From positions 1 to 24,125 of the IMG/VR virus record IMGVR_UViG_3300021197_000292: DNA of 24,125 nt. The stretch is one strand, 5' to 3'. Below the pieces are notes generated by a model. That model saw nothing but the letters and a program-made list of their open reading frames with translations, did not search any database and was not told the origin of the DNA. The stretch comes from a virus. The translations under genes and the position numbers were made by a program. Positions 2,007-21,004 of this stretch are shown piece after piece (within the stretch, counting starts at the first letter, position 1; the number at the start of each line of letters is the position of its first letter).

Positions 2007-5000
2007 ATGGGCATGATGCAGGTTAAAGGTGACTATAGTGGCAAAGTCTATCAGGTAGAATTTGCGGGCGCATCACCAACACCAGAAGAAATTGCTAATG
2101 CCTCTGGTCAAATACAAGCCTTGGAGCGTCAGTTTGAAACTGAGTTTGAGGGTATCTATGGAGATCAAACAGTAGACGATGGCACTGGATTTGGACGTGG
2201 GTTTGAGTCTGGATTAACACAACTTAAAAGTAGTATTGGCACTGCCGTTAGACGGGCTGGTGAAGGTTCAGAGTCTGATTTTATTGCAGGGATTGGGACA
2301 GGACTAGAAGATTCGGCACGTAGGACACAACTCTCTCGTGTCGGTACAGCTACACCGTTTAGGACGTTTGATGAGGCCCGAAAAGGCGGTGTTGGAGATA
2401 CGCTTTCCTATATAGGAGAAATTGCAGGGCAATCTGGTCCGCAAACACTTGCAGGTGTAGGAGCCGCAGGGCTAGCTACTTTAGCAGTACCAGCCGCACC
2501 TGTAACAGCAGCACTTACCGCTAGTGCTGCGGTTTTATTCCCGTTGTTTTATGGGTCAAACATACAATCACAAGAAAGTGAAATTGCTGCGGGTAATCTT
2601 AGTGGAATTGACAACACTAAAGCATTACAGGCAGCAGCACTACAGTCTACTTTAAACAGTATTGCAGACAAACTGTTAATCGGCCCTCTGTTTAACCCCG
2701 CAAAGAAAATATTTACTAGGGTAGCTCAAGGCGCAGGTCAAGGTACGCTATCAGAAGTACCGACTGAAATATCTCAACAAGTGTTAGAACGCTGGCAAGC
2801 GGGTAAACCATTAGATAATCCAGAAGCTATAGCAGAGTACCGAGAAGTAGGTATTGCTGCAGGTATTCTTGGTAGTGGTATCGGCGGTACAACTAGCGTA
2901 TTTAAAGGCCCGTCTTTAGATAATGCTACAGACACTGAAATAGTAAGCTCTGCAAAAACGGATGTAGGCGGTGAGGTGGACGCAGACGAAGATGGTGACG
3001 TTAATGATGCTGGTGGCCTAGCATCTGTAAGCTCAAAAGTCGTAAACAAAGTCGCAGATAAAGTAGCAGGTGGTAGTAGCCCAATAATTAATGCTCAAGG
3101 CCAATACGAAATGGACCTTGGCGAAAAAGCTGCACAGGTTCTTACAAAACCTATTATAACAGAAGTAGATACTGCTGCGGCTAAAAAAGCCTTTGTAGAT
3201 GATCCTAGTTTGTATGCTAAAACTAATGATTTTATAAAAGAAGAACTAGATCAATTATATAGTCCTGAAGTATTGTCAGAAATTATACGTCTTAAAAATC
3301 AAGGTTTACCATCCGAGGCTAAAGTTAAAAAACAAACTGACGAAGCTGATCTAGCCAAAGACGCAGAGTTTTTACAAGGTACTACAGATGCCTCTATAGA
3401 TAATGCCAACGCAGAAGCAGAAGCTGACCTAGTTAAAAAAGGCAAAAAAAGTGTTATTAAAAGAAAAATTAAAGGAGCAAAGCCTGCACCTGTAGAAACT
3501 GTTACGCCTAAACCTGCAGAGCCTACACCCGTAGAGCCTGTAGTTACAGATCAGGGCACACCGCTGCAAGATGGGACCGAAAATTTATCTATCGAAGATA
3601 TTCAAGCAAAAATAGATGCCAACAAGAAACGTCGTGCTGCTGAAGGTGTGTCACTTAAAAGTCAAACCCTTGCAGATAGAGAAGCAGCAGAACTTGAAGC
3701 CAAATTAAAAAGTGTTCAAGCAAAAATAGATGCTAATAAAGGACGCCGTGCCGCTGAGGGGGTATCGCTTAAAAGTCAGACCCTTGCAGATAGAGAAGCA
3801 GCAGAATTTGCAGACAAACTAAGACGCAATAAAGAACAGTTTGAGGCCGAGGCAGCTAAAGGCGCTAATGCTAACTCCGAACTTTTAAAGGCGTTGCAGG
3901 ACCAATCATCTGCGCTAAACACCGCGTTGAACACACAGAAGGCTAATCCTTACGAGGGTGGCGATTACGGTGTCTATCCAGAGAGCGTTACCTCTGAGCC
4001 TGATGTAGGAGATGACCCTAAAGAACCTTTAGTACCCGCTAAAGTAACAGTAGCACCATCAGAAGAACAACCTGCGCCCCCTGTTACTAGGGACGAGAGC
4101 GGAGCGTTTGTAGGTGATGCAGTAGACCAAGCGTTTCCTGATGTGGGCGCAACGGTTGACCCAGCCCCGATTACATATGCAACAACACCCGTGCGTATGT
4201 CCTCTGAACGTATCGCCCTAATTGCAGGTGGGGGGTTAGACCCTGAGATTGCCCGTAGAGCGGTAACAGGAGATATATCCGATCCCGAACTACTAGCAGA
4301 GTTAGATGCGGCTGCGACTAAAACACTGTCTGATATGTTTGAAGGTCGGAACAGGGCCGTGGGGCGGGCAGCACAGGCTATAGAGAAACGTCAAGGCACC
4401 TTGGGCAACCCTGATCTGTTCCCCGACATAACTTCTTTTGAGGATAAACTTAACATTATTGAACTGCTTAACATGACGAATGAGCAGGTTAAGGCAATAT
4501 CAGACACAGAAGAACGGTTTAGAGTACAGGGGGCTAGGTACTACTTCATACGGTTCCGTAGACCTGCTGAAGCCATTAGCGAGATAATGGGTACTAGAAA
4601 CGAAGCGAATAACGTCGTGAAAATGACCGATGTTATGTCTTCCAAGAAAGAACCTGCCCTTGACCAAGGTAAACTTGACGAGGCTGCAGAAACAGAAAGA
4701 GTAGACCTAACTACTGCAGCGTTTAATGCTGAAGAAGATCGTTTGTTCTATAAAGACCTGACTACGCAAAATGCAAAACGTGCGTACCAGTGGATGCGTA
4801 GAAATATGTCCGTAGACACTAGGATGAAACTTTTAGAGGACTACAAGAACGGCAAGCTGCTTAAAGCCAGCATGATAACTGGGGAGAAGTTAGTCTCCTA
4901 TGACGTGACCATTAACGATGAGGGTCAAGTAGTTATAACCTCTACCTACGACGATGCAGACACAGGCAGTGTTGCGGAGGCTATGAGCAAACGTGCACGT

Positions 5001-8000
5001 AGTATGCAGATGGGGCAGTTCCTGAGTGCTGGTAGAGCGATGGTCGCTGCAGGTGAGGCACAAACAAAAGCGGAGCGTATTAGAACTGGGTTGCCTGATT
5101 ACGTTAACCCTAAACAGGCAGACCTAGACAAGCTAGAGCAAGAGTTAAACGCAGTAGATGCAGTAAATGCAGAGATAAAGCTAAACCCAAAAGAAGCTAA
5201 AAGCCTACGCAGTGTGTTTAATCTTAGAGGCACTGAAGAACGAGACGCTAATAGGGCTAATGACGTACTTGAAAGAAAGTTGTTTGCAAAACTTAAAGCT
5301 ATTTCACCCTTACTTAGGAGCAGTGTCGATACCAGCCAAGGTGGGGTCCAAGACATTAACCCTGCTGACGCCGCTCTAGCAGAGCTTGAATTAGTAGTTA
5401 AAGAAGACGGTGTAGTGTCTGAGCGGCAAATAGATGATGCTATGACTGCAGAATTAGAACGCCTTTTTATAGCTGGTAAGATTACAAAAACTAAAAAAAC
5501 TAAACAATTTCGGGCAAAGGATAAGAAGGCGGTACGAGACCGTATAGAAGCTGAAGTAGCAGAACAAGCCGCTGAACGAGCGCAGTACGTTAAGGACGTT
5601 GGCGATCCAACGGACGCGCTTGATGCAGATGTTGAACCATTGTTGGACGATGATTACGTAGCTGAAGTTTCTGAACTAGCAAGAGATGTGTTTTTTGAGG
5701 ATGCAGACAATACTTTTAGCCTTGTAGCAGACGCGGTTAGTGTACTAGCAGACCCGCTGCGCCCTAGCATACAGAATCAACTTGCTAACAATGACCTGCA
5801 GGGCGCGTTGATGAGTATGGCACTGACAAGTCCTTCTAAGACTGTGAGCAAAGCCGCTGCTAGGTTGATACGGTATGTCGGCAACACTGATCTAAAACTG
5901 GTCTCGGGTACATTAACAGACCCACGCGGACGTGCTGCTTCGGGTAGGTTTGATCCAAGCACAAACACTATATCTATAGACCGCGACACAGGTATGAACT
6001 CACATACCGTACTGCATGAGGTCTTTCACGCTGCGTCTGCTGCTAATATTGCAAACATGAAGTTGCCAGAGGCTAGGCAGTTAAGAACCATATACGAAGC
6101 CGTTAAGAAGCAGTTACCACCGTCTTACGCTACAAGCAGCTTAGATGAGTTTGTAGCAGAGGCGTTTAGCAACCCTGATTTCCAAACGTTGCTGGCAGGT
6201 ATACCCATGTCAGACTTGAAGATTGCCAACACAAGCATGACGAATGCGTGGGTAAATTTCAAGACTGCTATACGCCGTATGTATAACAGATTTATGGGTA
6301 GGCCACAGGATTCGGTTTTTGGTCAAGCCGACCTATTACTGGATAAGATACTGGCCCCACAGCTTAGTAACCGTGCCGCCCCTGCGATGTACTTAGCCGC
6401 GTCTAACCCCAACACGGCAGGAAAGTTACTCACAAACGCTATGGGTGCGGTCAAGCCTTCCACTAAAGAAGAGATACAAGCTAAGTTTACTAAGGTTAAA
6501 AACTCGGGTGCGCTCTCATCGGGTAAGGGTTTTCTGTACGGTATATCCCCACTAAACATACTCGCGGATACGTTAAAGCGTGACTATGGAAGTGATGCAG
6601 GTGTTCGCCTCAACAGGATGGTTAACAAGGTAAGTTCCAAGTTACGCGATAAGACAGTCAAGCTAGACTACATCGTTAATCAGATCAAAGACTTTAAAAA
6701 GTCTGCGGGTATGGAGAAGTACAAGCTACTGCAGGAGCTAGTACCCACGTCTACGCTAAACCAAGTGGACCCATCTGTTAAACGTAACATCTATACCTCT
6801 TACGGTGTTGTGGTCACTGATCCTGTGTCGTTAAAAAAGACACGTACAAACCATTCTACCATAGCAAGACGTGATGCTAAGATCGCTAAAATTCTAGCTG
6901 CAAACCCCGAGGCTAAGATAACTAAAATTGCCCCGCTAAGTAAGGATAAACTAGCGGTCTACGATGCGCTTGTAAAAGACTATGATAACTTAGGAGAAGA
7001 TGGACAGCGTGTATACCGCACCATGCGTAACTTCTTTCAAGAAACATATGACGAGATAGCACCCGCGCTAAAGAAGCGTATAGAAAGTATAAGTGACGAT
7101 GCAGCGGTACGTCAGACTGCGTTTGATAAGTTGTCTGAACTGCTACTCAAGGACAGCGGTATAATCACACCGTATTTCCCGCTTATGCGTAAAGGTAGTT
7201 ACCGTTTGTCCTACACAGCTATCGACCCTGAAGGAAGTGCGAGTGGTGGCCCACAGGTAGACCGCTACGTAGAATACTTTGCGTCCAAAAACGAGATGAT
7301 AGAGGCGAAGCAAAAGGTAAAAGACTACAACGCCGAGATGCTTAGAAGGCCCGATGTTATCGCCGCAAACCTCAACACAATCTTTGATGAGAAGACAGGG
7401 CAAAGCAGACCAAACCCCATGCTGTCTCCCGCGAGTATGGAACCCGAAGCTACAAAACTCACGCCAAACAGTAATTACGGGAAAGCCCCTTCATCAGGAT
7501 TTGTGTTTAACGTGTTGAACGTCCTACAGGCTGCAGGTGTGCAGAATATGGAAGGTGGCAAAGGTAATAAAGTCATCAGCGATATTCTTGACTTATCACT
7601 AGATGCTTTGCCTGAACGCTCGTTTATGCAAGGGTTCCGAACACGTAAGGGCGTCCGTGGTTTCTTGGGTGACACTACACCTACAGGCTACTCCCTCGCT
7701 AACTTCGATCTTATAGATATGATGGAGACTAAAGGCCGTGACCTCAACCGCCAAGTCGTGCAGCTACAGGGTAGTGCTGAAATACAAGGGGTAATGAGTG
7801 ACATAGAAAAACTTACTCAAGACCCAGAGACTACTGAAATAGGTGATCGCTTAAAAAAGATAGCTGAATTTGCGCAACGTCCTAATGTTAATCGTCTCTC
7901 GCAAATAGCGACTAACTTTGGTTTTGGCTGGACTATGGCCTATAATATATCATCTGCAGGACTTACCTTCTTTGATGTGGGTATGTCAGTTATGCCACTG

Positions 8001-9581
8001 TTGCAGGGTAAGTATGGCGCATCTAGCACTGCCCGTGCGTTTGCAGACGCAACCAAAGTTTTATACGGCTCTCCTACTTACAAAATGATAACGGTTACTG
8101 ATGAAGAAGGTAACAAGGTCAGAGAAAGGTATGATCTAGGAGCCTTTGGTAGGTCACTAGGTAATGTAGACTTTACTGATACTGCGTCTGTACCAGAGGG
8201 GATGCAGAAATATGACGTGTTAGCCCCATACGCCACTCAGCAAGCACAGCTTGGGCAGTCTCTTACACAGGAAACTTTAGAGATAGATATGATTACGGGG
8301 GATACAGGTAGTGATGTTGCTACTCGTAACGCCAGAATGTTGCTAGAGACCTCGCAAAAATGGGGCGGGGCCATGTTCCACCACTCGGAACGTTACGGAC
8401 GTGAAGTATCACTGATCGCTGCTTATGATTTAGAAATAGATAAGATCAGCAACGGCGGTAAGAAAGAAGTAACCAATGCCGACAAACAAAAAGCTGCAGA
8501 AGCGGCAGTAGATTTTGTAGAGTTTACCCTCGGAGGTACTGCATCGGCAGGACGCCCCGTATACGCACAGGGTCCGATAGGTAACGTACTATTCTTGTTT
8601 AAACGGTTCGCTATAAGTAAATACTACATGATGATCCGCATGACCGAAGATGCGACTAGGCTTAAACCAAGAAACGAGTACGACACAGAAGAAGCGTACC
8701 AAGAGGCAGTGCTTAACCGTAGAGTTGCGCGTCAGCAGTTAGCTAGTTTCTTAATCACCGTAGGGTTAATCGCAGGTCAGCAAGGGATGCCGATGTTTGG
8801 AGAGCTTGGTATTCTGTACGACTCGATAATTAAAGATGAAGATGAAGATAACTGGGATACTATGGCTAAAAAGTGGATGGGTGATCCCCTTTACGGCGGA
8901 CTTGTAGGCATGTCGGGCCTTGCGATTGGTGAGCGTATTGCGCTTAACAATCTGCTGTACCGTCCACCACTTATTGAAAAAGAACAAAATGTACTTTGGA
9001 CGATAGCGGAACAACTAGGCGGTCCAGTAATAGGTATAACAAGTCAAATGAGCAGGGCGGTAAATTTAATGTCGGAGGGTGAGTACCAGCGCGGAATAGA
9101 AGCTATAGCACCAGCAGCGGTACGTAACGTACTTAAAGCGGGGCGTTATACAGACGAAGGTAACCTCACCATGCGGGGGGATGACATAACATCTGTAAGC
9201 CCGTTCACGATTGTAGGGCAACTTATAGGGTTCTCAGGCCGCGAACATATTGACCAACTTAATATGAACCGCAATGAGCGGACAAAGTTTGCTGCCATGC
9301 AGGACCGTAAAAAGAGAATTTTACGTAAGGCTAACATGGCGCGGAGAGAAGGTGACATTGAGGGTCTGCGCCGTGCCTATGAGGAGTCTCGGGAACACAA
9401 CCGTAGACTACCCCAAGGTGCCGAAAAGCTGCAAATAACGAGTGAATCGTTTAAAAATTCATATAAGAACTTTGAGCGTAATACTAAAGAGATGGTAGGC
9501 GGCATGATCTATACGCCTAGCATGCGTAGGAGTGCGTCTGAATATGACGATGGTTTGTCTCCCCTTGGTCCTATAGACTAA
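2007..9581 (+). CDS. Giant polyvalent virion protein with HExxH metallopeptidase-like site and PLxRFG-like motif
   Basis: A 2524-residue protein, probably carried in the virion and delivered into the host. Residues 145-183 are a long hydrophobic Ala/Gly/Val stretch, and 240-295 resemble the Gly-rich membrane-associating N-terminal region of such phage proteins. Residues 310-680 are low-complexity linker with two 38-residue repeats (532-607). HEVFH at 1337-1341, followed by DEFVAEAF at 1380-1387, fits a gluzincin-type zinc site, with His1337, His1341 and a downstream Glu as ligands. YFPLMRKGSY (1723-1732) resembles the PLxRFG motif of giant phage 'polyvalent' proteins. Residues 2245-2257 are hydrophobic and the C-terminus is basic and helical. 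The start is uncertain: ATGs at 2007, 2013 and 2016 all lack a good Shine-Dalgarno sequence. Known family background supports delivery with the genome; the exact activity here is inferred. No RNA polymerase or lysozyme motif was recognised. Confidence 0.9.
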   Translation: MGMMQVKGDYSGKVYQVEFAGASPTPEEIANASGQIQALERQFETEFEGIYGDQTVDDGTGFGRGFESGLTQLKSSIGTAVRRAGEGSESDFIAGIGTGLEDSARRTQLSRVGTATPFRTFDEARKGGVGDTLSYIGEIAGQSGPQTLAGVGAAGLATLAVPAAPVTAALTASAAVLFPLFYGSNIQSQESEIAAGNLSGIDNTKALQAAALQSTLNSIADKLLIGPLFNPAKKIFTRVAQGAGQGTLSEVPTEISQQVLERWQAGKPLDNPEAIAEYREVGIAAGILGSGIGGTTSVFKGPSLDNATDTEIVSSAKTDVGGEVDADEDGDVNDAGGLASVSSKVVNKVADKVAGGSSPIINAQGQYEMDLGEKAAQVLTKPIITEVDTAAAKKAFVDDPSLYAKTNDFIKEELDQLYSPEVLSEIIRLKNQGLPSEAKVKKQTDEADLAKDAEFLQGTTDASIDNANAEAEADLVKKGKKSVIKRKIKGAKPAPVETVTPKPAEPTPVEPVVTDQGTPLQDGTENLSIEDIQAKIDANKKRRAAEGVSLKSQTLADREAAELEAKLKSVQAKIDANKGRRAAEGVSLKSQTLADREAAEFADKLRRNKEQFEAEAAKGANANSELLKALQDQSSALNTALNTQKANPYEGGDYGVYPESVTSEPDVGDDPKEPLVPAKVTVAPSEEQPAPPVTRDESGAFVGDAVDQAFPDVGATVDPAPITYATTPVRMSSERIALIAGGGLDPEIARRAVTGDISDPELLAELDAAATKTLSDMFEGRNRAVGRAAQAIEKRQGTLGNPDLFPDITSFEDKLNIIELLNMTNEQVKAISDTEERFRVQGARYYFIRFRRPAEAISEIMGTRNEANNVVKMTDVMSSKKEPALDQGKLDEAAETERVDLTTAAFNAEEDRLFYKDLTTQNAKRAYQWMRRNMSVDTRMKLLEDYKNGKLLKASMITGEKLVSYDVTINDEGQVVITSTYDDADTGSVAEAMSKRARSMQMGQFLSAGRAMVAAGEAQTKAERIRTGLPDYVNPKQADLDKLEQELNAVDAVNAEIKLNPKEAKSLRSVFNLRGTEERDANRANDVLERKLFAKLKAISPLLRSSVDTSQGGVQDINPADAALAELELVVKEDGVVSERQIDDAMTAELERLFIAGKITKTKKTKQFRAKDKKAVRDRIEAEVAEQAAERAQYVKDVGDPTDALDADVEPLLDDDYVAEVSELARDVFFEDADNTFSLVADAVSVLADPLRPSIQNQLANNDLQGALMSMALTSPSKTVSKAAARLIRYVGNTDLKLVSGTLTDPRGRAASGRFDPSTNTISIDRDTGMNSHTVLHEVFHAASAANIANMKLPEARQLRTIYEAVKKQLPPSYATSSLDEFVAEAFSNPDFQTLLAGIPMSDLKIANTSMTNAWVNFKTAIRRMYNRFMGRPQDSVFGQADLLLDKILAPQLSNRAAPAMYLAASNPNTAGKLLTNAMGAVKPSTKEEIQAKFTKVKNSGALSSGKGFLYGISPLNILADTLKRDYGSDAGVRLNRMVNKVSSKLRDKTVKLDYIVNQIKDFKKSAGMEKYKLLQELVPTSTLNQVDPSVKRNIYTSYGVVVTDPVSLKKTRTNHSTIARRDAKIAKILAANPEAKITKIAPLSKDKLAVYDALVKDYDNLGEDGQRVYRTMRNFFQETYDEIAPALKKRIESISDDAAVRQTAFDKLSELLLKDSGIITPYFPLMRKGSYRLSYTAIDPEGSASGGPQVDRYVEYFASKNEMIEAKQKVKDYNAEMLRRPDVIAANLNTIFDEKTGQSRPNPMLSPASMEPEATKLTPNSNYGKAPSSGFVFNVLNVLQAAGVQNMEGGKGNKVISDILDLSLDALPERSFMQGFRTRKGVRGFLGDTTPTGYSLANFDLIDMMETKGRDLNRQVVQLQGSAEIQGVMSDIEKLTQDPETTEIGDRLKKIAEFAQRPNVNRLSQIATNFGFGWTMAYNISSAGLTFFDVGMSVMPLLQGKYGASSTARAFADATKVLYGSPTYKMITVTDEEGNKVRERYDLGAFGRSLGNVDFTDTASVPEGMQKYDVLAPYATQQAQLGQSLTQETLEIDMITGDTGSDVATRNARMLLETSQKWGGAMFHHSERYGREVSLIAAYDLEIDKISNGGKKEVTNADKQKAAEAAVDFVEFTLGGTASAGRPVYAQGPIGNVLFLFKRFAISKYYMMIRMTEDATRLKPRNEYDTEEAYQEAVLNRRVARQQLASFLITVGLIAGQQGMPMFGELGILYDSIIKDEDEDNWDTMAKKWMGDPLYGGLVGMSGLAIGERIALNNLLYRPPLIEKEQNVLWTIAEQLGGPVIGITSQMSRAVNLMSEGEYQRGIEAIAPAAVRNVLKAGRYTDEGNLTMRGDDITSVSPFTIVGQLIGFSGREHIDQLNMNRNERTKFAAMQDRKKRILRKANMARREGDIEGLRRAYEESREHNRRLPQGAEKLQITSESFKNSYKNFERNTKEMVGGMIYTPSMRRSASEYDDGLSPLGPID
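3600..3827 (+). repeat. Two tandem 114-bp (38-codon) repeats inside the giant gene
   Basis: Unit 1 is 3600-3713 and unit 2 is 3714-3827, encoding residues 532-569 and 570-607. Both contain QAKIDAN, RRAAEGVSLKSQTLADREAA and a charged helical end. Many differences between the copies are synonymous (for example cgtcgtgctgct against cgccgtgccgct), so the duplication is not recent and the protein sequence has been kept. The repeats are charged and helical and probably extend a coiled-coil linker between the N-terminal membrane region and the enzymatic middle. Confidence 0.9.
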
Positions 9582-9665: not shown

Positions 9666-9893
9666 TCATGCGGTACGCCATATACGTAACCCCAATATTT
9701 TGTTTTCTACACGAACTTCGTGTTTAACCTCCCATTGTCGCAGCGATGCAACGGTGGACACCTGATCTTTAGTCTTCTCAGTGTCCACACAGGGTATAAA
9801 CACAGACCCGCTAACCGTAAGTTTGTCCCAGTTTACAATTACTCTAATCCCGTCAGGATTAAGGTCTTCAATTTTCATCACCTTCTGGTCCAT
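9666..9893 (-). CDS. Small protein of unknown function, last gene of the replication train
   Basis: About 75 residues, not recognised. It is mostly beta-strand-like and charged (NPDGIRVIVNWDKLTVSGSV, then a basic RVENKILGLRIWRTA end) with one cysteine. The start at 9893 is chosen because GGAG lies 6 nt upstream of this ATG; the longer readings from TTG 9908 or ATG 9905 lack such a site, and ATG 9878 has a purine run only 2 nt away. It overlaps the end of the primase-helicase gene by 26 nt, so translational coupling is likely. It is followed by the terminator at 9580-9607. The remaining 58 bases between them show nothing. Confidence 0.7.
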   Translation of the reverse strand: MDQKVMKIEDLNPDGIRVIVNWDKLTVSGSVFIPCVDTEKTKDQVSTVASLRQWEVKHEVRVENKILGLRIWRTA

Positions 9894-12678
9894 CAGGAAC
9901 TCCATCAATAGAAAAATCTACACATATAACTCTTGCAGAGGGTAGGTTCATATGTGTGCCTTTACTTAGGCGTATACGTGTTTTGGTGGCTTTCATCTTC
10001 TCGGTTAAATCTCTAATTAACTGTTCATAGTTTATCTGTTGATCTATACACCAAGTCTTCAGCGGCTTCGGTAATAGATAGACTTTCTTAATATCAGTCT
10101 CGTACCTAGCGACGAACTTGCCTCGGGGTGTAACTTCGGGCAGTGCCAACATATCTAGTGGATTGCTATCTATACCACCACGAGCATCATCTGTACTTTT
10201 GATCCAGAGTATGTTGCTCCAATGTTCGGATATATAGTTGTTCAACGTCTCAGTTACAGAAGAACCCATATCGGCAACGTAGGCTCTACGCTCCCGCAAC
10301 CTATTCACCGCAAACGTAAATACAGGCTTTACCTCAAAAGGTAGTACCCCTGCTTTCCTGCCTATCATAAGCGCAGATATAATAGCCGTAACAGCGGCAG
10401 ACCAAAATCGGTTCTCAGGACCAAGTTCAGCCTTTTCATCTACACGCGATTGCACATGCTTTATAGTACGTTCACACTCCACACGATTGTTTATGACCCA
10501 CTGCACAAACCGTACTCCTGCATGACCGTAGTTGCCTTTTAAAGCGGGCCACAGTTTATCAGTCTCCGCTTTACTAGCAGAACCAAAGAACTTCGCTTCA
10601 GTCCTAAACTCTAGTATGCGTTGAGCCTCCGCTTTGGGAAAACCTTTAACCCTACTAATCATTTCTATAAAGCTAGTGTTACCTGTACTGATAGCCAGTA
10701 GGCTCCACGGTTTGCCCCTGTGTCGCTCGGTGTTACCGCCTTGAGACATGCGATTACGCTGCTTACCACCTGTTAATTGGTACGCTAGATCAGACAGCTT
10801 ACCCCCTTTGGTATTAGTAAGTTCGTCCATCATAAGTGGTAGGTTGTGATATATTTCCCCACGGTGCATCTTAGAATTATATGTGTCTTGCTCTTCAAGC
10901 AAAAGTTCTTCGGGGTTGCCCCATGCCGATAACCCTGCCATCAACATAGTAGTTTTACCAACACCTGTGTCTCCGTACATATGTAACCCAGCAGAGCCGA
11001 TCCCTGTTAGTGGCATAAGTATCGAAGCGTAGGACGCAGCGATTGTGAATTGGTGTAACTCAAACCCATCCCGATTGTAGAAGTCTATTGCATCAAGGTA
11101 GCCTTGCTCAGTACCCTTGGGGGTAAAGTAATCTATCATACTTGCAGTCTGTGTAGATGGTGGGTTGTAGTCTTCATCATTACCGTAGATAACACGATCC
11201 CCTAAGATGAACGCGGTCATGCTATCATCAACCCACCCAAACTGTTTATGGGCTTCATCCTCTGCTTGAGTAAATTGTAGTTCCTCAATCCATGCCATTA
11301 TATACACCTGTATCTTGTCTAATTTTGCGCCAAACGCAGCCACACCCTGCGTAGACATAGCTTTCCTAAATTCATCCCGCGATGTGATGCTAGACATTGG
11401 CATCGTCCATTCACGCACACCGTCTCGGGGCATATGCAGCCTAAACACAAGTGCTTGGCCTATCTCTGTGTCCCATATACGGCGCATGATATAGATATCG
11501 TTGTGGTAGATGCACTCTTCTTCTATCTCACCGTCACTGTTACTGGTGCGTTTATACACGCCGCCTTTAGCGCCGCGAAAGTAAGGCTTCGGGTATGTCG
11601 GTATATTGTAGGTTTTAGGTGCACTGGCGGGACGCTTTGCGCTAGGTGCAACAACTTCGTTGTCAGCCTCGTCAGCTTCTTTAAATTGTTTGCCTAAAAC
11701 TATAGGAGATTTTATCTTACCCCATAAAGCACACTCCATACACACATCAGGTCTAAGACCGTTAAATGTACGACAAGTGTACGGCCCCTTAACCAAAGAC
11801 ATTTTCTGATGGGTTTCACCAGAGTTATAGTCAGGGTGGCCCCTAGACATTACCTGTGCAGCCCTGTCTCCGTCTTCGCAGAATTTAGCAATAGACAGTC
11901 CCGCTCTCCATAACGGTTCGGTCACATTGGCCTGATCTGTCAGTATATGCGCGAGTTGAGCGCATCCCTTACCTATTTGTATCTTCTTTACAATACGACC
12001 AAAGCTATTCTCAGCATTGACCGCTATAAATCCCGACACAACATTACCGCCAACAGGGGCTGTGTTTACAGGGGTAACGCCTCCCAGTAAACTTATGAAG
12101 TCAGCCAGCTCGATACTTGGTTCCGCACTTATCAAAGCCACTGGGGATGGCGGTGTGTCCTTAAAGTTACGTGTGTCAGGCATGCGTAGAATACGCGCTG
12201 CGTCAGCCGTAACTGCAGGATCGGCCTTGAGACCATTCTCCTCACAAAACTCTTTAAACCGTTCTGCCACAGGAACCCAATCATCCACAGGTACTGGTGC
12301 AGACAAAACCCAGTAAGCGTGGATTCCGCGCCCCGAGTTGACCTTAGTAGGTTCGGGCATGCTAGTCTTAGTGCAAAACGCCTGTAACGCCGATAGCGCA
12401 TCCTGCTGAGACGGGTATTCTTTGCTAGGGCCACAATCCAAGTCTACGAAAAAGGATTGTAGATGTAGTGCGTTATCGGCCCTACGATTAGTGTTGTTTA
12501 CGAATGTGCTTAACGCAAAATAAACATCGTGGTCTTTAGCATCAAAGGTGTCTACTGCCGCATGCAATTCATCAATAGTGTCATAGAAGTTCTGCGTTCT
12601 ACGTTCACCGTTGGTTGCAAATAAACAATAATGCCCTTCACTGCTTAAAACACTTTTTAGAAATTCTAGTCGTTCCAC
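9868..12678 (-). CDS. Primase-polymerase fused to DUF927-like P-loop helicase
   Basis: A 936-residue replication protein expected to prime and unwind phage DNA. The N-terminal third looks like an archaeo-eukaryotic primase domain: FFVDLDCG with Asp79/Asp81 as metal ligands, SGRGIHAYW (115-123) with His120, and RILRMPDTRNFK (162-173). A Cys-containing segment follows (YTCRTF...CMECALWG), possibly zinc binding. The C-terminal half has Walker A GDTGVGKT (569-576), a Walker B-like LPLMMDELTN, an AYQLTGGKQRNR segment and LLAISTGNTS, the order seen in DUF927-type helicases. The start is GTG, supported by GGAGGA 6 nt upstream; no ATG competes. It lies downstream of the SSB gene, separated by a structured 60-nt gap, and overlaps the last small gene. 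The primase assignment rests on motif pattern and the helicase assignment is firmer. Confidence 0.9.
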   Translation of the reverse strand: MERLEFLKSVLSSEGHYCLFATNGERRTQNFYDTIDELHAAVDTFDAKDHDVYFALSTFVNNTNRRADNALHLQSFFVDLDCGPSKEYPSQQDALSALQAFCTKTSMPEPTKVNSGRGIHAYWVLSAPVPVDDWVPVAERFKEFCEENGLKADPAVTADAARILRMPDTRNFKDTPPSPVALISAEPSIELADFISLLGGVTPVNTAPVGGNVVSGFIAVNAENSFGRIVKKIQIGKGCAQLAHILTDQANVTEPLWRAGLSIAKFCEDGDRAAQVMSRGHPDYNSGETHQKMSLVKGPYTCRTFNGLRPDVCMECALWGKIKSPIVLGKQFKEADEADNEVVAPSAKRPASAPKTYNIPTYPKPYFRGAKGGVYKRTSNSDGEIEEECIYHNDIYIMRRIWDTEIGQALVFRLHMPRDGVREWTMPMSSITSRDEFRKAMSTQGVAAFGAKLDKIQVYIMAWIEELQFTQAEDEAHKQFGWVDDSMTAFILGDRVIYGNDEDYNPPSTQTASMIDYFTPKGTEQGYLDAIDFYNRDGFELHQFTIAASYASILMPLTGIGSAGLHMYGDTGVGKTTMLMAGLSAWGNPEELLLEEQDTYNSKMHRGEIYHNLPLMMDELTNTKGGKLSDLAYQLTGGKQRNRMSQGGNTERHRGKPWSLLAISTGNTSFIEMISRVKGFPKAEAQRILEFRTEAKFFGSASKAETDKLWPALKGNYGHAGVRFVQWVINNRVECERTIKHVQSRVDEKAELGPENRFWSAAVTAIISALMIGRKAGVLPFEVKPVFTFAVNRLRERRAYVADMGSSVTETLNNYISEHWSNILWIKSTDDARGGIDSNPLDMLALPEVTPRGKFVARYETDIKKVYLLPKPLKTWCIDQQINYEQLIRDLTEKMKATKTRIRLSKGTHMNLPSARVICVDFSIDGVPDGPEGDEN

Positions 12679-17491: not shown

Positions 17492-19338
17492 TATTCGGTA
17501 TCCCCATACGATTTGCCAATACCGCTTTCACACTCAAGCGGTAGTCCTGCTGCCCAACTGGGTACATGACGCATGCACTGCTCTACGTGTGCCCTTGCTT
17601 GTACCACATCCTCATCGGGGCAACATATAGCTATGCTGTCATGCACAGTCATAACAGACTTATACTTCTGATTTATTAGTAGCATTTGTTCGCCAATGAT
17701 ACAACGTGCCAATGCCTGACATACGTTTTCAACCACCTTACCACCGTATATATTCTTACGTCCACGGCGCGTTTTGTATGAGTATTCGGGCCAAACATCT
17801 TCGGGTTCTACTCCCTTGGGCGCAGGGTCTAACTGCAAGTCTTCGTAAAACATGCGTAACCCCGATGGCAGGATTACTGCGCTCTGTGGTATATCTATAC
17901 GCAGCACATTTTCACGACCCACGCGAACCGCATGACCGTCTACAAGCTGCTTCAACATATACTGGGCTTCATCCCACAGCGTAGGTATCTTCCAATATGT
18001 ATCACGGTATATATCTATGACACGCCTAGCTTCCGTTAGATCAACCTCGACGCCCATACCTGCAAGCTGAGTTTTAAACTTCTTAGCCCCCATGCCGTAA
18101 CCTGCGCCAAGGATTGTAGTTTTGCCCACAAACCGCTGTGCGCCAGTAACGTCTGCCTCGGCTACTTTGTATATAGCCGCCGCCATTTTCACATAAACAT
18201 CTTCGCCATCAGAAAACGCCTGAGTTAATTCGTCTGCCTCGGCTAACCAAGCTAACACCCGCGCCTCAATCTGAGACGCATCGCACTCAACTATAGTATG
18301 ACCCTGTGGGGGTATTATGCTTTTCTTTAGCTTCTTGCCGTTAGCCCCACGACTCGGCAGGTTTTGCAGGTTGATCTTATCATCACCGCCCCACCGCCCA
18401 GTGTGTGCCGCATAATATCTAATGGGGACCGGAAGAGTACCACGTTTAGATATGTCTATAAACCGCTGTGTGCGTGTCTCTTCTAAGGTACTTTTAGTGC
18501 CCAGCCTAGCTGCTATCAGTGTTTGCACACGCTCGTCTTCATGTTCTTGTAATTCTTGAAACTCTTTGTCAGACTTGGCAAACGCAAATGTTTCTTTCTC
18601 TGTCGTGGGGCTGATCTTGACAGGTGGTGTAACACCTAACCCAGATAGCAACTCCGCGAACTTGGCATTACTCATTAAATCTTTTCTGTCAGTTATGTTG
18701 GCGTCAACCATCAACTTGTCTTTGCGATCCCGCACATCCTCTAGGTGCATCTCAAGCATGCCCATATCCAGCTCTAAGCTAGGCTCTGTAAACATGCGTA
18801 GCGTTGCGTCTATGATATCTAACTCTTGTTCAGGGAACTTGGCTTTCATCTGCTGAAAAATAGCGTAAGTCAGGTCCACGTCCTTCTTACAGTACCCTGC
18901 GTAGGCGGTCAGTTCTTCCTCGGTAAAATCGGCTAAGCGTTTGTCCTTCGCCATGATAACTTCGGTACCTTTTTCCCCGACACCGTAACGCTCCGCTACA
19001 TTTTTTAGAGACACGCTTTGCTCTGTACCGTGCAACGCTCTCGCCATACACAATGTGTCGAGTAGGAATTTAGGTTTGATATTATAACGCCAGCTCAGGA
19101 TGGCTCCGTCAAACATCATGTTGTGAGCCAGTACATGCGTGTTGCCCCAATCAACAGATGCTAGTAGTTCGGTTACATCATCGGCACCCTGCGCCCACTC
19201 GGTCGGATTGGGGCCGTGTTTCAGCCCCAACCCAATCACTTCAAACCTACGGTCACGTATGTATTGCTCTGTCGTTATCTTCGCCAGAGAAAAGTTCTGC
19301 GCGTAGTAGGTTTCAAAGTCTAACGTAACAAGGTTCAC
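17491..19338 (-). CDS. polA: Family A DNA polymerase with 3'-5' exonuclease (Leu762 type)
   Basis: A 615-residue replicative polymerase. The exonuclease domain has Exo I LDFET (Asp7, Glu9), Exo II AHNMMFD (Asp77) and Exo III YCKKD (Tyr149, Asp153), all intact. The polymerase domain has TGRWGGDDKINLQNLPSR (313-330), motif A CDASQIEAR with Asp353, motif B RFVGKTTILGAGYGMG with Arg402, Lys406 and Tyr414, and motif C TVHDSI with Asp567. The residue matching E. coli Pol I Phe762 is Leu410. Motif C has Ser568 where Pol I has Glu883. The 5'-nuclease domain is absent, as usual in phage enzymes. The start is GTG 19338, overlapping the MazG-like gene as GTGA, with only a weak purine run upstream, so it is probably coupled. 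Confidence 0.95.
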   Translation of the reverse strand: MNLVTLDFETYYAQNFSLAKITTEQYIRDRRFEVIGLGLKHGPNPTEWAQGADDVTELLASVDWGNTHVLAHNMMFDGAILSWRYNIKPKFLLDTLCMARALHGTEQSVSLKNVAERYGVGEKGTEVIMAKDKRLADFTEEELTAYAGYCKKDVDLTYAIFQQMKAKFPEQELDIIDATLRMFTEPSLELDMGMLEMHLEDVRDRKDKLMVDANITDRKDLMSNAKFAELLSGLGVTPPVKISPTTEKETFAFAKSDKEFQELQEHEDERVQTLIAARLGTKSTLEETRTQRFIDISKRGTLPVPIRYYAAHTGRWGGDDKINLQNLPSRGANGKKLKKSIIPPQGHTIVECDASQIEARVLAWLAEADELTQAFSDGEDVYVKMAAAIYKVAEADVTGAQRFVGKTTILGAGYGMGAKKFKTQLAGMGVEVDLTEARRVIDIYRDTYWKIPTLWDEAQYMLKQLVDGHAVRVGRENVLRIDIPQSAVILPSGLRMFYEDLQLDPAPKGVEPEDVWPEYSYKTRRGRKNIYGGKVVENVCQALARCIIGEQMLLINQKYKSVMTVHDSIAICCPDEDVVQARAHVEQCMRHVPSWAAGLPLECESGIGKSYGDTE

Positions 19339-20093
19339 TTCTTTGTTACTTTCTTTAGTGCTAACTCACCCGCACACGCCATGTACCCACAGGCGTCTAT
19401 GTAGTTGTCAGGGTTATGTTTGTTGGACTTGAGCCGTGCGATCTTCAACAGGGCCATCATCATCGCAACATCGGTGGGCGAGAAAGACCACTCATAACTA
19501 AAATACTGCTCCCACAGCATAGCTATAGCCTCAAAGTTATCCTCCATATCGCCATGCGTAGCTTCACGATCTTTGGTGACATACTGCTTGGCGGTATCAA
19601 GGACACTGCTACGTGTGTATGTACCTTCTTCGGGGGGCTTGCCGCCCTTAGTCAGATTGTAGGCAAAGTCACCAATCTTTGTAGGATCAACCTCGTCCGT
19701 TATATGTACGGGTAACGGGTCTGCTAGTGATACTTTCTTCAGATAATTAGCAGGTTTAATATCGGGTATCAGATCGGGAAACTTAACCCTAAACTCTGCC
19801 GCCCTTTGCTGAAACTTGTCCTCAGTCATACCCTTAACACCCTTATACCAAGGCCCGTCTACCCCTGCATCTACTTCGGCTTTGTGCTTCCCATAAGAAA
19901 CCCATTCCTTAAAGCCTGTCTCGCTTTCAGTGAACGGGGTTATGAAATACTTTTTACGTATCCCTTCAACGTATGAAAGGCTACCTCCACATGCAACCAT
20001 AACAGACCTGATTGTGGCAGTTGGGTTCTCAGTTATATATGCAGCAGCTTTGTAAGCCTTTGTCTTTTTCTTAGAGCGATATCGCTTAGTCAT
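19335..20093 (-). CDS. HTH-like domain fused to a MazG-like (DUF6378-like) nucleotide hydrolase domain
   Basis: A 252-residue protein starting at ATG 20093, chosen because GGAG stands 6 nt upstream; a longer reading to 20213 would run far into the neighbouring gene. Residues 1-50 are basic (KRYRSKKKTKAYK), then helical, with a possible helix-turn-helix (AAYITENPTATIRSVMVACG). Residues 55-155 are a less conserved linker. Residues 163-246 match the DUF6378/MazG-like phage pattern: TAKQYVTKDREATHGDMEDN, FEAIAMLWEQYF, DVAMMMALLKIARLK and DNYIDACGYMA, with acidic residues Glu184, Asp229 and Asp233 suited to metal binding. Related proteins hydrolyse dNTPs to monophosphates. It ends in a GTGA overlap with the polymerase, so a role in the dNTP pool is likely. 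The DNA-binding role of the N-terminus is inferred. Confidence 0.82.
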   Translation of the reverse strand: MTKRYRSKKKTKAYKAAAYITENPTATIRSVMVACGGSLSYVEGIRKKYFITPFTESETGFKEWVSYGKHKAEVDAGVDGPWYKGVKGMTEDKFQQRAAEFRVKFPDLIPDIKPANYLKKVSLADPLPVHITDEVDPTKIGDFAYNLTKGGKPPEEGTYTRSSVLDTAKQYVTKDREATHGDMEDNFEAIAMLWEQYFSYEWSFSPTDVAMMMALLKIARLKSNKHNPDNYIDACGYMACAGELALKKVTKK

Positions 20094-20103
20094 AGTTCTC
20101 TCC

Positions 20104-20625
20104 TTATTCAAATTCTGGTACAAACCAGTCATCATCCAACGCCCACAGACAGTAGGACGCTTTCTTTTGAGTGCCGAGGCGTGATACCTTGGCTTCCCAA
20201 ATCTCTCCATCACGATGCAGTTTACCCAACGCTAGTTGCACTTCATCGTTATCTGCGTCTAGCTTAGACGCTATCTCAGTAGCCCTATGTGCGAATTGAT
20301 TGTCTGTCTCAGACAACAAACTAAGTATACGATCTTCCATCTTAGCTACCACTACGCGAGGGGTTTCTTCTTCATCATCAAAAGTATCAACAGAATGTGT
20401 TACGCTCTCAGCGACAACACCCACAACCTGATACTTGGTTGAGTTAACCATTTTTGAAGTGTTGGGTATCACTCGCATCTGAGCAAGTGTACCTTCGGCA
20501 AGTCGATACTTTTTCACAAGGTTGGGCGGTATAAAGACACGCTCCCCTTGGTCTATGTCAACTCCAAATCCGCATTTCTTATCCACCAATACGTGCTGCA
20601 CGTATATCTTTAGTGTGTTTAACAT
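20104..20625 (-). CDS. Probable nucleic-acid-binding protein: OB-like N-terminus plus winged helix
   Basis: A 173-residue protein, not matched to a named family. Residues 15-55 (FGVDIDQGERVFIPPNLVKK then YRLAEGTLAQMRVIPN) look like a small beta barrel of cold-shock/OB type. Residues 75-90 are acidic linker. Residues 96-165 fit a winged helix: MEDRILSLLSE, then ATEIASKLDADNDEVQLALG and the wing DGEIWEAKVSRLG. Such a pair suggests an RNA- or DNA-binding regulator, possibly autoregulatory. GAGAGA is upstream of the ATG. The gene is preceded by the structured 112-nt gap at 20626-20737 and followed after 10 nt by the MazG-like gene. Confidence 0.75.
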   Translation of the reverse strand: MLNTLKIYVQHVLVDKKCGFGVDIDQGERVFIPPNLVKKYRLAEGTLAQMRVIPNTSKMVNSTKYQVVGVVAESVTHSVDTFDDEEETPRVVVAKMEDRILSLLSETDNQFAHRATEIASKLDADNDEVQLALGKLHRDGEIWEAKVSRLGTQKKASYCLWALDDDWFVPEFE

Positions 20626-20657
20626 TGTTCTCTCGCTTGTTTATGATATTGTTTTTA

Positions 20658-20730
20658 TGAGGGCGGTGATAATTCAAACCCACCTACCTGCGGTCTGCCT
20701 TATTGTTAGTTTCACCTACAGCCGCCCTCA
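20658..20730 (-). ncRNA. 73-nt structured, partly tRNA-like element
   Basis: On the - strand, TGAGGGCGG (20730-20722) pairs perfectly with CCGCCCTCA (20666-20658), closing a 55-nt interior. Inside, TGTAG...CTAACA can form a short stem with one bulge, and GGTGG/TCACC forms a 5-bp stem (competing at its end with the closing stem) around a 10-nt loop containing TTTGAAT, close to the tRNA T-loop TTCGAAT. Length, closing stem and T-like arm recall a tRNA. No anticodon arm can be drawn in the purine-rich middle and no CCA follows, so it is not a normal tRNA. It could be a degenerate tRNA or a leader RNA for the gene at 20625. It lies in the largest gap of the leftward train. Confidence 0.4.
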
Positions 20731-20737
20731 CCATTCT

Positions 20738-21004
20738 CTATGATTTGTTTAGGATACCCGCCATAAATTCATTGGCAGCGCGCACCGCTGCTTCTTCGTT
20801 ACGTGCGATGTGCTCCTCACGTTCTTCGCTTATAGCTGCGGATAGGGTAGCCGTTACAGCCATCATCATCTGAGGCCACGAATCTTGCTGTTCAAACAGT
20901 AGAACAAGATTAGCGATAATCAGCGACATAATCTCGGGTGACGCTTGGTCGGGCGCGGCTTTAGCTATGCGCTCCATAACCGCTTCAAACTTAGCTTTAT
21001 CCAT
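20738..21004 (-). CDS. Small helical protein of unknown function
   Basis: An 88-residue protein, not recognised. It is predicted to be all-helical with a hydrophobic centre (EIMSLIIANLVLLFEQQ, then MMMAVTATLSAAISEE) and a charged end (EEHIARNEEAAVRAANEF). The centre is too broken by charge to be a clear membrane segment. GGAG lies 7 nt before the ATG. It overlaps the upstream HTH gene by 8 nt. It is followed by the structured gap at 20626-20737. Confidence 0.75.
   Translation of the reverse strand: MDKAKFEAVMERIAKAAPDQASPEIMSLIIANLVLLFEQQDSWPQMMMAVTATLSAAISEEREEHIARNEEAAVRAANEFMAGILNKS

Follow-up and report, generated by a model that had tools for sequence, protein, structure and literature searches.

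A structured RNA element with a three-way junction is shared by unrelated, mostly marine phages

The 112-nt gap at 20626–20737 of a virus record (the whole stretch analysed, 24,125 nt, is hereinafter the window) contains a structured element encoded on the minus strand. Comparison with relatives shows the element to be a member of a predicted phage RNA family, with about 95 nt per member. The family is apparently undescribed; it comprises at least about 65 distinct sequences among the matches listed, on at least five phage backbones, mostly of marine phages. The comparison also supports a three-way-junction RNA inside a compact gene train, as proposed in an earlier note on this DNA. Marine phages have been little surveyed for structured RNAs, and here one overlooked gap leads to a family absent from Rfam, which gives many uncharacterised phage genomes one more conserved feature. 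An element of about 95 nt that is single-copy and dispensable is also a defined target for studying the action of phage RNAs on host machinery.

Results

Structure of the element in the window

The gap lies between two leftward ORFs (Table 1). Within it, an exact 9-bp stem, P1, is formed by UGAGGGCGG and CCGCCCUCA and encloses two hairpins, P2 and P3, in agreement with the drawing in the earlier note. The 79-nt element has a minimum free energy of −31.1 kcal/mol (z −4.0), which was matched in 0 of 200 shuffles, and the whole 112-nt gap folds with z −3.2. The sense strand is the better folded one, the opposite strand of the 79-nt element reaching −23.5 kcal/mol with z −2.8.

The structure does not end with the stem. 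Specifically, the tail TATCATAA starts exactly 10 nt beyond CCGCCCTC, and because this distance is fixed in relatives, the element reaches about 20641 and exceeds the 73 nt first assigned to it. At the other end, the leader triplet is UGG in the window element and UCG in most relatives.

Table 1. Features of the element and its flanking genes in the window
Feature	Position	Strand	Description and basis
Whole element	20641–20733	−	UGG leader, P1, P2, P3, 10-nt linker and UA(N)CA tail; extent set by comparison (CM R1/R2 matches and conserved 3' tail)
P1 5' strand, UGAGGGCGG	20722–20730	−	partner 20666–20658; double changes at 3 of 9 pairs
P1 3' strand, CCGCCCUCA	20658–20666	−	folding and P1 covariation
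P2 hairpin, UGUAG-GUGAAA-CU(A)ACA	20704–20720	−	GGUG in loop; contains the 'ACTAACA half-site'; compensatory changes in sister L003
P3 hairpin, (C)AGACC...GGUUU(G)	20675–20697	−	loop GCAGGUA-GGUG; C-G at the second pair, where other groups have A-U
Conserved P3 loop, GCAGGUA	20685–20691	−	replaced by GACAGGC, AAYAAAC or AACAAAAA in other subfamilies
Tail, UAUCAUAA (UANCA)	20641–20648	−	exactly 10 nt after CCGCCCUC; TA offset counts
Upstream gene	20738–21004	−	co-directional, 88 aa, no family; stop codon 4 nt before UGG
Downstream gene	20104–20625	−	173 aa, weak S1/CSD-like match (E 0.0054); adjacency to element not conserved

Covariation among relatives

The downstream gene is carried at 69–100% identity in 36 loci, most of which keep the element. 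In sisters, P1 changes from GGGCGG/CCGCCC to GGGUGG/CCACCC, a compensatory replacement, and in sister L003 P2 reads UGUGA...UC(A)ACA, where AG/CU has become GA/UC by two adjacent compensatory pair changes. L242 and L241 have GACGGUGG/CCACCGUC as P1, two compensated changes off the common form.

Among the matches listed, 31 distinct sequences were aligned over P1, and 99.6% of their cells pair. Double changes occur at three of the nine pairs (A-U/G-C, G-C/C-G and C-G/U-A), with a covariation score that no shuffle reached, and the stem has no free indels; the check on covariation and free indels that had been set beforehand for the 9-bp stem was thus passed. The closing pair of P3 is C-G in 31/31 sequences, and its second pair is C-G in 15 and A-U in 16. 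U-G pairs are present on the sense strand. Our reading of the groups is that P1 has probably undergone at least five independent double changes, counts of distinct sequences not being equal to counts of independent events. The compensatory changes in P1, P2 and P3 therefore indicate that the element acts as RNA.

The element is absent at the corresponding place in L033–L036, and only its 3' part remains in four loci of one sub-clade (L015, L019, L022 and L023), probably as a remnant; the element is therefore dispensable.

Two motifs to which the earlier note gave weight did not hold up among relatives. The T-arm-like loop TTTGAAT is confined to the closest relatives, and elsewhere reads TTTAAAT, TTGATGT, TTTGTGT or TTAAAAT. 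ACTAACA, taken for a palindrome half-site, is part of P2 and is not conserved in sisters, which have ATCAACA or TACAACA. In L016, L020, L025 and L027–L029, the interval from the upstream gene to the element contains a palindrome, ACTAGGACGCGTCCTAGT or its ACGTGT/ACACGT variant, which may belong to the palindrome family to which the half-site was assigned.

A wider family of phage elements

The consensus of P1 is 5'-UCGUG-N-GGGYGG / CCRCCC-N'-C, in which N pairs with N' as A-U, U-A, G-C or C-G. The P3 loop has the consensus RACC-R-(A)YARR, of which ACC-GCAGGUA is the form in the window, and the P2 loops are UUGGC or UCGG in the wider-family alignment. The window element has the defining features of the family (UGGUGAGGGCGG/CCGCCCUCA, covariation, P2, P3 and TA at +10); in its clade, G takes the place of the 5' C of the consensus.

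A stem scan recovered the same fold with the loop CGCAGGUR in two further settings. In the first, of the L056 type, the element precedes a homologue of the window's upstream gene. The second is a podovirus-like group, whose terminase resembles that of HTVC010P (54% identity); there, a 171-aa gene ends in a UGA that is also the first triplet of P1. More divergent elements came from a model search of polymerase relatives (L446, L449, L431 and L421), and a further stem scan added L452, L470 and L434. UCGUG-N-GGG is present on the 5' side in most of the divergent elements. Because the pattern of the last collection scan, described below, fixes UCGUG, its conservation in members found by that pattern is selected by the search; L470 and L434, which were found without it, also carry UCG.

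The last collection scan used the pattern TCGTGNGGGYGG N35–64 CCRCCCNC, and its counts refer to the matches listed. Distinct matches with an AT-rich interior have complementary N/N' in 38/40 and complementary Y/R in 39/40, as against 14/45 and 27/45 for GC-rich matches, which serve as background. The models R1 and R2 derive from different subfamilies, and each finds the other's members at the right place and on the right strand; R2, built from the UUGGC subfamily only, gives E-values from 5e-5 (L031 and L075) to 0.6 (the window). Collection totals are lower bounds, and the family is larger than listed.

A tail at a fixed distance

UA (TA) is found at an offset of exactly 10 from CCRCCCNC in 34/38 and 26/31 distinct sequences among the matches listed, the set of 31 including four chance matches and L226, which is cut by an inserted module. 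At nearby offsets UA is found in 0–5 sequences, except that the CAGGUR family has a second UA at +15. The intervening linkers show no relationship to one another (AUAAAAACAA, AACGCGCUCA, ACAUUUUGUU and UCAGACUUUC). The combined site of stem end and tail has one match in the window, with a chance expectation of 0.04. Inspection by eye for pairing of the tail with the P2 or P3 loops gave nothing consistent.

The same spacing could be read at the DNA level, with the 3' strand of P1, the following 10 bp and TANCA forming a promoter or a protein-binding site to which the stem is secondary. We retain this reading because TANCAU resembles a −10 box; a minus-strand TTATCA-18-TATCAT is predicted at the right place, overlapping the tail, and the spacing of exactly 10 would suit such a site. 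We nevertheless consider it improbable. P1, P2 and P3 covary and contain sense-strand U-G pairs, no −35 hexamer is conserved across subfamilies by inspection, and the 'promoter' would lie 3' of a co-directional gene, often pointing into convergent genes.

Position relative to neighbouring genes

The gene upstream is on the same strand as the element in 60 of 63 scorable loci (65 loci listed), and the three exceptions look, by inspection, like spurious ORFs. TAA or TGA immediately precedes UCGUG in 26 cases, and the element is often 0–7 nt behind a stop codon. The upstream genes are unrelated among loci. In the UUGGC group, the element stands last in its gene train, with lysozyme-type genes converging on it from the other side; the window copy lies inside its train. 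Each long record has one copy.

On the other side, 34 of the 65 loci listed have a convergent next gene and 30 a co-directional one, and there are at least six kinds of downstream neighbour. Since the downstream gene is convergent in so many loci and otherwise varied, the element is not a leader, and the suggested control of the OB-like/winged-helix gene that follows in the window falls with it. A metabolite or ion riboswitch, or another leader of the next gene, is thus largely refuted by the genomic contexts and is very improbable, even if the compact three-way junction and the conserved loops are what such a switch would have; moreover, the next ribosome-binding site lies outside the stem. 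One subfamily has a weak match to the nhaA-I (Li+-I) riboswitch (RF03057), with which it shares the order GGGUG ... GCAGGU. This identity is tempting, but the scores of 10.2 bits in L056 and 9.1 bits in the L246 record are at chance level and below the cut-off of 37 bits, the window record and six further phage records gave no match, and the element differs from nhaA-I in its helix arrangement and in having no downstream-gene association.

The position behind co-directional genes is what would be expected of a cis-acting mRNA element, in which P1 and the hairpins block exonucleases or mark an RNase or protein site, and thereby fix a 3' end or separate mRNA segments. The frequent placement at the end of a train facing lysozyme-type genes and the tail fixed 10 nt past the stem fit as well. 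This reading is possible but rather unlikely: there is a single copy per genome, the loops are more conserved than a stem block needs, the upstream genes are unrelated, the window copy is internal to its train, and typical RNase III substrates are longer than the 9 bp of P1.

The phages that carry the element have different terminases (phrog_38; phrog_2/2472; phrog_2/5902; a 511-aa type). Carriers with unrelated terminases have small genes at 82–84% amino-acid identity (G001 9802–10113 with G004 8691–8975; G003 30271–30729 with G004 9133–9522), pointing to common hosts. Whole-record scans of seven further long PolA phage records did not find the element; it is accessory, with only some PolA phages carrying it. 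Taken together, the comparison shows what is probably a free-standing module: single-copy, tied only to the upstream strand, and located in unrelated backbones that exchange other genes.

Searches for known RNAs, isolates and bacterial copies

The size and the TTTGAAT loop had suggested a decayed tRNA or a tRNA mimic. This can be given almost no credence. The absence of an anticodon arm, already remarked in the earlier note, was confirmed, and the element also has no CCA (3' flanks TAAAAA, CATTTT, ACGCG and TCAGAC); the alignment refutes a tRNA, the T-loop being lost in relatives. Two of the searches that had been called for were negative: ARAGORN, applied to the window and to ten related loci, returned 0 tRNA or tmRNA genes, and Rfam 15 at the gathering cut-off returned 0 matches in the window and 15 loci of other subfamilies. 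Permissive Rfam searches gave chance-level matches only, none of them to tRNA. An intrinsic terminator (GC stem and U-run on the sense strand) was looked for in the window and in L587, and none is present at the element.

Among isolate phages, blastn found no copy, and model searches found none in HTVC010P, Greip, RHph_TM3_14A, KPP25, MEP301, phiM5 or one Manatee Spring record, some of which were covered in part. A bacterial genome scan with P1 fixed gave at least 116 matches, which is the chance level. In about 660 bacterial genomes, with the best candidates scored in each, R1 gave two matches in 385 alphaproteobacteria, which we attribute to chance (one falls within a TetR gene, the other lacks the conserved loop); R2 gave none in 385 alpha- and 274 gammaproteobacteria. 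A second R2 match in L470 lies inside a gene and was rejected. Other roles were also set aside. The element is away from the GC-skew extremum expected for a replication origin, TerL is far from it in the window type, as a packaging site would not be, and 8.5 kb separate it from the integrase gene in the TerL-type phage, which speaks against attP.

Proposed function

Independence of its neighbours, conserved RNA structure on the sense strand and location on the 3' side of the upstream gene argue that the element is therefore not a next-gene leader or riboswitch, a tRNA or a terminator. It could well be a small noncoding RNA, a 3'-UTR-type module that is cut from phage mRNA and acts in trans, a reading that we put forward tentatively. 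Specifically, a polycistronic phage mRNA would carry the element as a module of this type, and a nuclease would release the RNA, with UANCA 10 nt past P1 as the mark for processing or protein binding. The P2 and P3 loops would then act in trans on a target common to the hosts of the carriers; the RNA might, for instance, serve as a decoy that occupies an RNA-binding protein or nuclease of the host, or might act on mRNAs of the host or the phage. Three results weigh against action in trans: the element is dispensable, a search of five phage records for antisense targets of the P3 loop found no consistent complement near start codons, and a location immediately after a stop codon would suit a cis-acting 3'-end element too.

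The λ sib element (retroregulation) and the T7 RNase III sites are structured RNAs between or behind phage genes that act at mRNA ends. Like them, the element is structured and on the strand of the upstream gene; unlike them, it has one conserved copy behind unrelated upstream genes, its loops are conserved on a three-way junction, and its tail keeps a fixed distance of 10 nt. The 3'-UTR-derived small RNAs of bacteria and prophages are modules directly behind a stop codon and within an mRNA, as the element is, but no U-run terminator is present beside the two elements tested, so that the 3' end would need processing. Racr RNA anti-CRISPRs are short accessory noncoding phage RNAs that mimic CRISPR repeats (PMC10651486). 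The element is likewise short, accessory and phage-borne, and differs in having a 9-bp stem and two hairpins.

A broader view, doubtful as it stands, is that the family may represent a class of noncoding RNA widespread in phages, marked by near-fixed ends on a recognition stem, a tail at a fixed distance and exchangeable loops. Such RNAs would be passed among unrelated marine phages with shared hosts and would act in trans, with a factor of host defence or RNA processing as a conceivable target.

Other features of the window and of carrier genomes

The window is a 24-kb virus record in which a leftward replication train faces a rightward block. The train encodes a family-A DNA polymerase, a PD-(D/E)XK nuclease, an SNF2 helicase, an Enc34/Gp2.5-like ssDNA-binding protein and a primase/helicase; the best full-length matches of the polymerase among isolates are 30–34% identical. 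The rightward block contains a gene for a 2,524-aa protein (2007–9581) with an LPD39 domain, and related records have a matching ORF of 2,214–2,710 aa. At 19335–20213 is a gene for a DUF6378 protein, named phosphofructokinase in PHROGs; each of the five carriers included in the comparison has homologues, at up to 77% identity.

In L048 (1646–2240), L063, L075 and L107, the element is followed on its 3' side by a sigma-70-like promoter, a short leader, an intrinsic-terminator-like hairpin and then the small terminase gene, an arrangement that resembles the pR'-tR' layout of late-gene antitermination in λ. Reverse-strand XRE-type repressor modules adjoin the element in two loci, directly after it in L226 (1553–2209) and directly before it in L241 (4520–4954), the latter locus also having the palindromic operator-like sequence ATAGGGGCAACTGCCCCTAT.
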